A stretch of DNA of 36,786 nt, taken from IMG/VR virus record IMGVR_UViG_3300036845_000567, positions 1 through 36,786 of that record; one strand, written 5' to 3'. The translations under genes were made by a program, and so were the position numbers. Shown here piece by piece: positions 1 to 36,786 of this stretch. This stretch comes from a virus. Position 1 is the first letter of the stretch, and each line of letters starts with the position of its first letter. The notes under the pieces were generated by a model, which was given only the letters and a program-made list of their open reading frames with translations, was not told where the DNA came from and searched no databases.

Positions 1-127
1 AGATCGATACCATCTAATTCTTTAATAGCTCTTACAAGGTTAAGGATGGCCGCATCGCGATCTTTTTCTGCCTCGGCACGTCTTTCTACGGCGAGAGCTT
101 TATTTTCTTCTACGCGGCTTACACGTT
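1..127. repeat. 127-bp terminal direct repeat, left copy
   Basis: Bases 1-127 are identical to 36660-36786. The repeat lies inside the portal coding frame, and joining the ends keeps that frame open, so the molecule is circular or terminally redundant with a unique length of 36,659 bp. An overlap of exactly 127 bases matches a common assembler k-mer, so this is more likely an assembly overlap than a physical phage end. Confidence 0.95.
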
Positions 128-31067: not shown

Positions 31068-32426
31068 TTATAAGGTAAGCGTGGCACGCAGGTTAATTAC
31101 CCACAAATCGTTGGTGATTCGGGGAACTTCTGCGAATTTATAACCAACACTTGCGTTAAGAGCTAAAGGCCCATCATAGATTGGCGGACGGTAGATAAAG
31201 CTTGCGCTATATCCGTCTTGTTCTATACAAGCATAGGCATCCATACCCACGCAGAAAATGTTGTACACATTTGCGTTAAGATATGATGCATTTGGCGTCA
31301 CAGAGCCAATAGACGATACTAGGAATCTTAAATTTCCAATGGCCCCCCACTCTGAACGGAGAGCGTTCATAGGAGCTGGATATTGGTTCTTTTGGATGAA
31401 TCCTGCAACGTTGTCTAAGTTACCTGTTAGCTGGGTAGAACAGAGAGCAAAATACGCATCACGAACTGGTGCTGTCGAATCTGTTACTTTAGTGACCTAT
31501 TGCTAGGCGGGGAAACCTCTTCGGATCTCCCTCTCTATGTTTCCATAGAGGTCAGACTATCGCATCCCCTTGCGGGGTTTCTTCACTTAGTCGTTCACGC
31601 TGCAAGGCAAATGCCAGCTTGCGCCCTGTCACCCCGAGGGGCTTCCAAGTCAATCAGAAGAAATTTAACGTCGGCACATATTTTACCGAACCTATCCTCA
31701 CCTTCCATGTTGTCCATGATCGTGTACGCATTATTGTTTAATAGCGTACGAACCACGGTATCAACATCAGATCGGGTGATTTCTGTCGGATTGTCTCCGT
31801 TTACACCACCCGTGCAGTTGATGAAAGCAGCAGTGCCTGCCAACATGTCTCTGGTAAGTTGGTCTTCCGTTTGGCGTAGAGAAACGCCCAATCGAGCAGC
31901 ACATTCATTAAGAACGGGATCCTGATTTTGGAGTGTAACCTGCTCATTAAGTGTTACATAAGTGCCATAGAAGCTGATTTTGGCGTCAATATCTATAGCC
32001 GTTAGATTTTGGGGAGGTGGTGTCACACCAGAATTTCCTAGTGGAACCATGGCGGTATTTAAGGGATTATAGCGTCGCATACGCAGCGTTGTACCGCCGT
32101 TGCGAGGCATAGCTTTCATCATTGCCGGGATCTTCAATCTGTTACTTTTGTGACCCTTTCGGGCGGGGAAACCTCTTCGGATCTCCCTCTCCATGTCGCC
32201 ATGAAGTTCAGACTATCGCATGCCATTACTGGCCCTTCTCACTTAGTCGTTCACGGTGCTTTCGCTTCCGCCTTGTAATCCTCTGGGGACGTCCAAGTCA
32301 ATTAGAGAAAGTTTTAGATCCACAAGTTTACCAATGGATCATATTAGGCACTGGGACACTCAAGAGCTTATAGCTGAAGCTCTGTTGTATCGGCGCTGGC
32401 AATGTACTTGTCGTAGTAATCGACAT
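31068..32426 (-). CDS. Major capsid protein, N4-gp56 type, three exons joined around two group I introns
   Basis: Exons on the minus strand are 32426-32334 (31 codons), 32134-31685 (150 codons) and 31475-31068 (135 codons plus stop). Joined, they give a 316-residue protein running ...VPVPNMIH|KIPAMMKAMPRNGG... and ...MEGEDRFG|TAPVRDAYFALC..., with smooth capsid sequence over both joints. LRMRRYNPL, YVTLNEQVTL, GNLRFLVSS and similar blocks are those of the N4-gp56 capsid family. The ATG at 32426 follows GAGGAG. Without splicing, exon 1 ends in a stop one codon past the junction and exon 2 stops inside intron 2, so capsid synthesis requires removal of both. The capsid lies between scaffold and decoration genes, as usual. 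Exon limits come from manual intron folding. Confidence 0.88.
31476..31684 (-). ncRNA. Group I intron 2 of the capsid gene (209 nt)
   Basis: 5' exon TCGGT pairs with guide GCCGA (31675-31671), placing a U-G pair at the splice site after 31685; the intron's last base is G (31476). P3 is TTTCTTC/GAAGAAA (31663-31657 with 31584-31578). P7 is GACTA (31592-31588) with TAGTC (31559-31555). P8 is CCCC-GCAA-GGGG. P9 is CTCTATG-GAAA-CATAGAG. Two more hairpins (P9.1, P9.2) lie before the 3' end. No ORF fits inside. Its 3' half shares a 29-base identical stretch with intron 1. The fold, done by eye, has every core helix expected of a compact ribozyme. Confidence 0.88.
32135..32333 (-). ncRNA. Group I intron 1 of the capsid gene (199 nt)
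   Basis: 5' exon GATCCAT pairs with guide GTGGATC (32323-32317), a 7-bp P1 ending in the U-G pair that marks the splice site after 32334; the last base is G (32135). P3 is CTTTCTC/GAGAAGG (32311-32305 with 32240-32234). P7 is GACTA (32248-32244) with TAGTC (32215-32211), P8 GCCA-GTAA-TGGC and P9 CTTCATG-GCGA-CATGGAG. P9.1 and a GAAA-capped P9.2 follow. There is no ORF inside. Compared with intron 2 the helices are kept while their bases differ, which is direct evidence of structure. Confidence 0.9.
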
Positions 32427-32617
32427 GTTTGCTCCTCGAAGAGAGGTTGCACAGATATATGTTTGGGAGCGAGCGATGCTCAGTACGGCTCTTGAGGGGG
32501 CGAGACTCACTACGCCCAGATGGGACTTGCGAATTCCCTATAACGCGCTGCTATGTTAGTATGTTTTTACAGATAAAGTCTAGAGTTAGCGCCCAGAGAC
32601 AAAGTAAAGAGGAAATA

Positions 32618-33079
32618 ATGTCCATAAAGATAAGAGAATTTAGAAGAGATCATACGCCTGAAGAATGTGCGTATATCGCTGGAATAATTGATACATGCGC
32701 TAGCTTTAAAATAAGCAAAAATCCAGATTGGTCATATGCTATGATGATAAGCTCTACCAATCGATCATTGATTGATTATATGGACAGAGTTATGGGTACA
32801 AAAGTGCTCTGTGAAGATACAACTCCTAGGCCTGGTCGCATGCATAATGATAAACTATACATGTCCAATAAAAGATATGTGTGGAGCGTTTACGGGATAT
32901 TATTAGACTATGTGTTAGAAATAACCAATAAATATTTAAATATTCAAAAGGGTAAATCAGACCTCATGATTAAATTTAGAAACACCTATAATAAGTCCGG
33001 TTTGCGAACTATTGTAACGCAAGACATTATTAAACAAAGAGAAGATTTGTTTGCAGAATTTCGAAAACTATATTTATAA
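32618..33079 (+). CDS. Free-standing LAGLIDADG-family protein with altered active site
   Basis: A 153-residue protein on the opposite strand to the surrounding head genes. AGAGGA precedes the ATG at 32618. Residues 19-30 (YIAGIIDTCASF) are a single LAGLIDADG motif followed by strand FKISKN, and the later YVWSVYGILLDYVLEI block plus IQKGKSDLMIKF fits the rest of that fold, as in dimeric homing endonucleases. The catalytic acid of the motif (second Asp) is Cys27, and the following Gly is Ala, so DNA cleavage is doubtful. Its end overlaps the scaffold stop by six bases, and it lies 191 bases upstream of the intron-split capsid gene. It could be the partner nuclease of the introns, a decayed copy, or a maturase-like RNA-binding relative. 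Confidence 0.85.
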   Translation: MSIKIREFRRDHTPEECAYIAGIIDTCASFKISKNPDWSYAMMISSTNRSLIDYMDRVMGTKVLCEDTTPRPGRMHNDKLYMSNKRYVWSVYGILLDYVLEITNKYLNIQKGKSDLMIKFRNTYNKSGLRTIVTQDIIKQREDLFAEFRKLYL

Positions 33080-33793
33080 ATTCCTTCTAGCTTCTCTCAT
33101 CTCACGAATCATCTGGGATTTTAGTTCAGGGGTAAGTCCATTAGCAAATGCATTAGCACGAGACAAAGGACTATCTCCTTGTTGTGGGGATACGCTTGCC
33201 AATGGCTTAGGTTTTGCGGCATTAGCATGCACTATTTGTTTCTCGTGATAATTGTCTTCAGGTATAATGCCCAGCTTTTTGATAAGCGTGTATGCAGATG
33301 ATCCAGTTGCATAAATATCTGACGATGAATTAAGGGTGAAGGCTATTTCAGGATAGGTGTCTCGTAATGCTTGAACATTTTCTTTAGTAACTACGCTATC
33401 AAAGTCAGGATACTGGGCCTTCAGTTTTGCCTCGGCTGTTGCGACTCTAACTTCTTGTCGGAGCTTATTGAGTTGATTTTGAACTTTAGATATATGCTTA
33501 CCTTCAGCAAGCTCATCAGGAGCCATAGTAAAATCATCAGACTCTTGGTTCTGTGGTTTACTTGGGGTTGCCTGGTTAATGCGTGATTCGTATTCCCGTA
33601 GTCGTGATAAGGCTTCGTCTCGTTCTCGGGAAACACGATCGGCTTTCTCTCGCAGTTGTTTAAAGTTTCGGGCTTGATCGTCAGTAGGTTGCGCAGGCTG
33701 AGTAGCTTGTTCTACGGGCACCTGGTCTTGAATAATATCAGACGTAGTAGGGGTAGGTTGTATAGCTTCGCTTATATTTGTGTCATCAAACAT
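33074..33793 (-). CDS. Scaffolding protein
   Basis: A 239-residue acidic/charged protein with AGGAGAG before the ATG at 33793. The N-terminus is Pro/Gln/Thr-rich and disordered (PTPTTSDIIQDQVPVEQA), residues about 45-75 and 95-125 form coiled coils (RNFKQLREKADRVSRERDEA; ISKVQNQLNKLRQEVRVATA), and the C-terminus is a basic helix (LTPELKSQMIREMREARRNL) like the capsid-binding ends of scaffolds. It precedes the capsid gene, as is normal, but a 647-bp stretch with the LAGLIDADG gene now separates them. It would guide capsid assembly and leave or be digested before packaging. Confidence 0.8.
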   Translation of the reverse strand: MFDDTNISEAIQPTPTTSDIIQDQVPVEQATQPAQPTDDQARNFKQLREKADRVSRERDEALSRLREYESRINQATPSKPQNQESDDFTMAPDELAEGKHISKVQNQLNKLRQEVRVATAEAKLKAQYPDFDSVVTKENVQALRDTYPEIAFTLNSSSDIYATGSSAYTLIKKLGIIPEDNYHEKQIVHANAAKPKPLASVSPQQGDSPLSRANAFANGLTPELKSQMIREMREARRNL

Positions 33794-36563: not shown

Positions 36564-36786
36564 TATACTGCTCCCGTTGAAGATGGTTGAGTAGGTAGGG
36601 TCTCGTTTTCACGCGCTTTAACTATATCTGATATTTGTACCAACTTATGAATGTGATCAAGATCGATACCATCTAATTCTTTAATAGCTCTTACAAGGTT
36701 AAGGATGGCCGCATCGCGATCTTTTTCTGCCTCGGCACGTCTTTCTACGGCGAGAGCTTTATTTTCTTCTACGCGGCTTACACGTT
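36563..36786 (-). CDS. Portal protein, C-terminal part (start at 1928, across the join)
   Basis: The same frame as at 1-1928. From base 36659 downward it adds the last 32 residues, ending VKARENETLPTQPSSTGAV and TAA at 36563. Bases 36660-36786 duplicate 1-127. The frame agreeing over both copies confirms the circular join. Confidence 0.88.
   Translation of the reverse strand, partial: RVSRVEENKALAVERRAEAEKDRDAAILNLVRAIKELDGIDLDHIHKLVQISDIVKARENETLPTQPSSTGAV
36660..36786. repeat. 127-bp terminal direct repeat, right copy
   Basis: This is identical to 1-127, all 127 bases. See the left copy: circular genome or assembly overlap. Confidence 0.95.

Follow-up and report, generated by a model that had tools for sequence, protein, structure and literature searches.

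What is a nuclease-like gene doing beside a phage capsid gene that is split by two introns, and could it have moved them? The question is raised by IMG/VR virus record IMGVR_UViG_3300036845_000567, the whole of which (36,786 bases) is referred to here as the window, and in which the locus was analysed at about 31068-33793. A first-pass annotation had proposed collaborative homing, in which a free-standing nuclease targets the insertion site of an intron, and the intron protects its own genome (PMC6083498, PMC10448857). Our analysis leads us to think that the gene is probably an intron-type LAGLIDADG gene that was displaced outside any intron, into an insertion hotspot, and that is now catalytically dead.

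The gene starts at the ATG at 32618, which is preceded by a ribosome-binding site, AGAGGA. This shortens the span of 32427..33079 initially assigned to it; a 216-amino-acid reading from the TTG at 32429 was rejected because it crosses the capsid promoter and 5′ untranslated region (UTR) common to relative L002. An AlphaFold2 (AF2) model of the 153-residue product had a mean predicted local distance difference test (pLDDT) score of 86.8 and an α-β-β-α-β-β-α fold with one LAGLIDADG helix. The top Foldseek matches to this model were I-MsoI and I-CreI, and a search with the family profile matched I-MsoI at 3e-27. Judged from the model and these matches, the I-CreI/I-MsoI fold is beyond doubt. Fold, profile and coordinates agree with the original description of a single-motif LAGLIDADG gene lying between the putative scaffold gene and the capsid gene, on the strand opposite the latter. 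The protein is recognizable as LAGLIDADG only via its relatives: searched as a single sequence, it gave no significant Pfam match, no close relatives in viral contigs and no tblastn match in annotated phages.

The motif of the window protein reads IAGIIDTCASF, with the metal-binding acid (Asp or Glu) replaced by Cys27, at what we take to be the position of Asp20, the metal-binding acid of I-CreI. The nearly invariant active-site lysine is replaced by Gln110, presumably at the position of I-CreI Lys98. When some 60 relatives were aligned, Asp or Glu was kept in every readable motif except those of the window protein (TCA) and of one remote open reading frame (ORF) distant from the capsid gene (L233; ARG). 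Because the acid is missing, we assign the window protein to the family on grounds of ancestry and fold, but do not regard it as a demonstrated endonuclease. From the two replacements we infer that it is catalytically dead at present; with the active site gone, a present-day role in homing is unlikely.

Its nearest relatives are LAGLIDADG genes encoded antisense within capsid introns (L176, 27.6% identity, 5e-16). A scan seeded by the window protein and six of these antisense, intron-encoded relatives returned 77 ORFs, with GEG present in every one. All but one were antisense with capsid exons nearby, having both halves of a group I intron beside them in 63 cases and one half in 13; the remaining ORF was located elsewhere. 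These antisense ORFs interrupt the intron at model positions of about 78-85, i.e., in the P6 loop, and most of their host introns follow codon 97 or 104 (codon 181 in L215). Examples are L083 (3028-3537), L085 (4980-5459) and L176 (1347-1835), with some 70 others. To our knowledge, an antisense LAGLIDADG gene in a phage capsid intron was previously known from one mycobacteriophage only, LittleE. A second LAGLIDADG group, on the sense strand, occupies a capsid intron at codon 13 (L019, L027, L033, L051, L055, L083-L087, L310, L311), whose ribozyme core overlaps at P7 with the C-terminal part of the ORF (KVAATTK in many). Sense genes upstream of the capsid gene in the first five of these loci were not counted as free-standing, because their C-termini overlap that core and they are encoded in the codon-13 intron. 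The window gene is the sole free-standing LAGLIDADG gene seen beside a capsid gene, and the fact that its closest relatives, with a single exception, are encoded in introns speaks against present-day activity in the collaborative homing first proposed for it. As a side observation, PHROG 5046 and 12980 are labelled HNH endonuclease yet match LAGLIDADG proteins (L083 versus 5046 at 8e-24), and from these matches that label looks wrong.

Compared with L002, which lacks both introns and LAGLIDADG gene, the window gene sits exactly between the scaffold stop codon and the conserved capsid 5′ UTR, in place of a terminator-like hairpin; its stop and that of the scaffold gene overlap, over six bases. 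The possibility that it lies within a cryptic 5′ UTR intron was rejected, since no core surrounds it and the flanks align to L002. That relative is too distant for a co-conversion tract to be read from DNA identity. The first-pass annotation had called for a comparison with intron-less relatives, and the nearest empty-site relatives lack both the gene and the introns. Its statement that podoviruses normally have nothing between scaffold and capsid genes does not hold here: the length of this interval in relatives varies from 168 bp to over 3 kb, with HNH, chaperonin (GroEL) and helicase genes and many small genes among its contents, making it an insertion hotspot in this group. GroEL-like genes are found in it in L020, L022, L035 and L045, with GroES-like genes too in L035 and L045.

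Both interruptions of the capsid gene are ORF-less, and the earlier statement that neither encodes a nuclease was correct. Exon joints were chosen by a P1 helix with a U·G pair and a three-base P10, and were confirmed by relatives, the same codons being contiguous in the majority of 80 loci retrieved with exon 2. Placing the 3′ splice sites at GTAACAG or ahead of GGTCAC was rejected because frame and P10 fail. Intron 1 has the conserved end AAGTAACAG..G. In an alignment of ten introns that occupy these two sites in different phages, 94.5% of cells were paired and 31 of 49 pairs were changed on both sides, and the covariation score was 0.526 compared with 0.207 in shuffles (0/500 shuffles were as good). 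On the strength of this pairing and covariation, with a P3-P9 fold, U·G in P1, a terminal G and exact exon joining in each, both interruptions are group I introns, and self-splicing is predicted. Rfam at its gathering threshold found no intron in the window, which reflects the sensitivity limit of the library; intron 2 matched RF00028 below gathering, at 21.7 bits (E 0.008). The closest matches of intron 2 are introns of other phages at or near its own site (84% identity); its identity to intron 1 is 75%, and a local duplication of one from the other was rejected on this comparison.

In this phage group, introns of this type occur at some 20 codon sites of the capsid gene (L002-L081, L093-L172, L213-L371), at about codons 7, 9, 12-13, 26, 31, 70, 88, 97, 104, 124, 132, 144, 181, 184, 228, 261, 275, 300 and others. 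At least one was present in 49 of 184 non-redundant loci, and several occurred in one gene in L110 and L115. The gene is among the most intron-rich phage genes that we know of.

Co-occurrence of nuclease genes and introns was scored in metagenomic loci retrieved through capsid exon 2 and extending 1.6 kb or more upstream of the capsid gene (194 loci, or 160 after removal of near-duplicates at 99% identity), a sample that favours capsids uninterrupted within exon 2. Each locus was scored for an upstream homing endonuclease gene (HEG) outside introns and for ORF-less introns; the HEG scoring covers LAGLIDADG and PHROG 374-type HNH genes, and other families would be missed. An ORF-less intron in codons 1-31 was present in 7 of 12 loci with an upstream HEG and in 3 of 148 without (p = 1.9e-7), or in 6 of 11 versus 3 of 148 with the window excluded (p = 1.7e-6). 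This association arises mainly from HNH genes: all upstream free-standing HEGs other than the window gene were HNH (PHROG 374, E 1e-51 to 1e-62), nearly all of them antisense like the window gene. The layout of the window, in which a free-standing HEG adjoins an ORF-less intron of the target gene, recurs in HNH-bearing L016, L034, L048, L068, L072 and L355. Among HNH carriers, the intron follows codon 31 in L034, L068 and L110, and codon 26 in L016. On the capsid tree the carriers were scattered, with 12 changes in the HEG trait and 8 in the 5′ intron, so the association is not accounted for by shared ancestry. With five supported pairs only, a sign test on independent pairs was underpowered. 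These clade-level statistics make collaborative homing likely for the HNH-bearing relatives and their 5′ introns, and to this extent the proposal of the first-pass annotation stands, whereas present activity of the window protein, with acid and lysine replaced, is not supported.

Could the window protein still work in this way, cutting intron-less capsid genes at codon 31 (perhaps also 181), with repair spreading the gene and one or both introns? The architecture shared with the HNH-bearing loci and the clade-level association would fit, and a 7/11 pseudo-palindrome lies at the centre of site 181, which would suit a homodimeric enzyme, although this signal is weak, about 1 in 100 positions scoring so high. 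However, symmetry at site 31 is slight (3/11), upstream HEGs showed no association with an intron at codons 181-190 (p = 0.25; 160 loci), and no second free-standing LAGLIDADG gene was seen at the scaffold-capsid position. Taken with the lost catalytic residues, these findings make working homing by the window protein improbable. A link between the window gene and intron 2 has no support, because that intron is closest to same-site introns elsewhere and the trait association is absent; the suggestion that one nuclease could serve both introns is not supported, for the same reasons.

Alternatively, an HEG may simply have inserted next to an essential gene by intronless homing, the introns having arrived separately. 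The interval is a general insertion hotspot, and upstream HNH genes and 5′ introns are separable, because five HNH carriers (L019, L039, L064, L232, L254) have no ORF-less 5′ intron, the last four being without introns. Introns also occur without an upstream HEG (L037, L285, L361), and the site-181 intron shows no link. We nevertheless consider separate arrival unlikely, given the strong association of upstream HEGs with 5′ introns and the usual home of this family, a capsid intron.

Displacement from an intron, the explanation we prefer, would run as follows. Members of the family, normally antisense in the P6 loop of capsid group I introns, would be expected to cut intron-less capsid alleles, into which repair would then copy the intron. 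In the window lineage one such gene would have moved outside introns to a position directly after the scaffold stop, where it would have taken the place of the terminator-like region without disrupting the capsid promoter. In its active period the enzyme could have cut capsid genes of relatives infecting the same cell, and co-conversion could then have carried along adjacent sequence, the ORF-less codon-31 intron included; HNH genes upstream of the capsid gene in relatives seem to act in this way. The metal-binding acid and active-site lysine would have been lost later. Past activity of the protein and past mobilization of intron 1 are presumed, and the gene may once have carried that intron. 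The direction, from intron to free-standing, is suggested by the counts of relatives and not by a rooted tree.

Several points weigh against this explanation. There is no intron scar, i.e., no core or remnant around the gene, with the flanks aligned to L002. There is no close relative, the best identity of about 30% being too low to reveal selection or the direction of movement. Inactivity with Cys at the metal site is a prediction from the residues, and the 153-codon ORF is intact behind a good ribosome-binding site, both of which would be gone from a gene that had died long ago. The loss of catalysis may therefore be recent, or another role may maintain the ORF.

Such a role could be that of an exapted nuclease, serving as a regulator of the divergent capsid promoter, a blocker of incoming introns at codons 97 and 104, or a splicing maturase. 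The retained frame and ribosome-binding site would be accounted for, the gene faces the capsid promoter, and the capsid repressor CapR, which derives from homing-endonuclease DNA-binding domains, offers a parallel (PMC10448857). Against this, no conservation is demonstrable and no regulator-like change was seen, and a maturase seems unnecessary because dozens of similar small introns lack such a protein. We rate exaptation as doubtful at best. More speculative still is a specific version, in which the dead LAGLIDADG protein, once out of its capsid intron, was kept as a sequence-specific binder of capsid-locus DNA, providing anti-intron immunity or regulating the capsid gene. If true, this would be a homing endonuclease domesticated next to the gene that it once targeted.

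The features of the locus are listed in Table 1. The three capsid exons, when joined, encode an open 316-residue protein.

Table 1. Features of the capsid locus in the window
Feature	Position	Strand	Remarks
LAGLIDADG gene (I-CreI/I-MsoI type), free-standing, 153 aa	32618-33079	+	antisense to capsid gene; C27, Q110
Capsid promoter/5′ UTR	32427-32617	-	77% identity to intron-less, LAGLIDADG-less relative L002
Capsid exon 1	32334-32426	-	codons 1-31; boundary from contiguous codons in intron-less relatives
Group I intron 1, 199 nt, ORF-less	32135-32333	-	after codon 31, CAT/AAG joint; P1 with U·G, P3-P9.2, covariation
Capsid exon 2	31685-32134	-	codons 32-181; phrog_1357 major head protein, 1.4e-15
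Group I intron 2, 209 nt, ORF-less	31476-31684	-	after codon 181, GGT/ACA joint
Capsid exon 3	31068-31475	-	boundary from contiguous codons in intron-less relatives
Putative scaffold gene	33074-33793	-	by position and conserved neighbour in relatives; phrog_8865 scaffold only at E 0.17

The start of the record (window 1-60, AGATCGATACCATCTAATTCTTTAATAGCTCTTACAAGGTTAAGGATGGCCGCATCGCGA) recurs at about 36660-36760, a repeat of the kind seen when a circular or permuted genome is assembled with redundant ends. A tRNA scan found none. Of eight relatives in genome assemblies, three were in Chlamydiota bins (L372, L374 and L376: Simkaniaceae, Parachlamydiaceae and Parachlamydia) and the others were scattered, a hint that this phage group may infect environmental Chlamydiota.

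Among known systems, F-CphI of cyanophage S-PM2, beside an intron-split psbA gene (PMC6083498), and the T3/T7-like phages (PMC10448857) resemble the window in that intron-less relatives lack both elements. In those systems, however, an active nuclease cuts where the intron is inserted, whereas the window protein no longer has its catalytic residues and its relatives are encoded within introns. In ICP1 a T5orf172 gene lies beside an intron-split terminase gene (PMC10448857), and there, as in the window, the free-standing HEG adjoins the first exon and is not inside an intron. The ICP1 nuclease is of another family, whereas the window gene stands free although the rest of its family occurs within introns of the very gene that it adjoins. 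Such a layout would follow from the "HEG turnover" hypothesis (PMC10448857). The capsid group I intron of LittleE, among the Cluster J mycobacteriophages, with its bottom-strand I-CreI-like LAGLIDADG gene (PMC3706429), has the layout of the window protein's relatives, but that gene is inside the intron, while the window gene is outside and predicted to be dead. HEGs opposite the ribozyme strand, as in the capsid introns here, are also known from nuclear rDNA group I introns, e.g., I-DsqI (PMC9548176), although that is a His-Cys enzyme inserted at P9.2 in eukaryote rDNA, rather than a LAGLIDADG in the P6 loop of a phage capsid gene.

Collaborative-homing layouts could arise by two routes, i.e., convergence of a free-standing nuclease and an intron on a single site, or turnover with relocation of the nuclease. 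A single capsid-gene family holds every stage, from introns with antisense LAGLIDADG genes through ORF-less introns and ORF-less introns partnered by HNH genes to empty alleles, and the window adds one in which an intronic-type nuclease is free-standing and apparently dead. The HNH association supplies concrete pairs of nuclease and site that can be tested. The wider result is a capsid gene that group I introns have entered at some 20 sites, accompanied by LAGLIDADG genes on the antisense strand and by HNH partners outside the introns.
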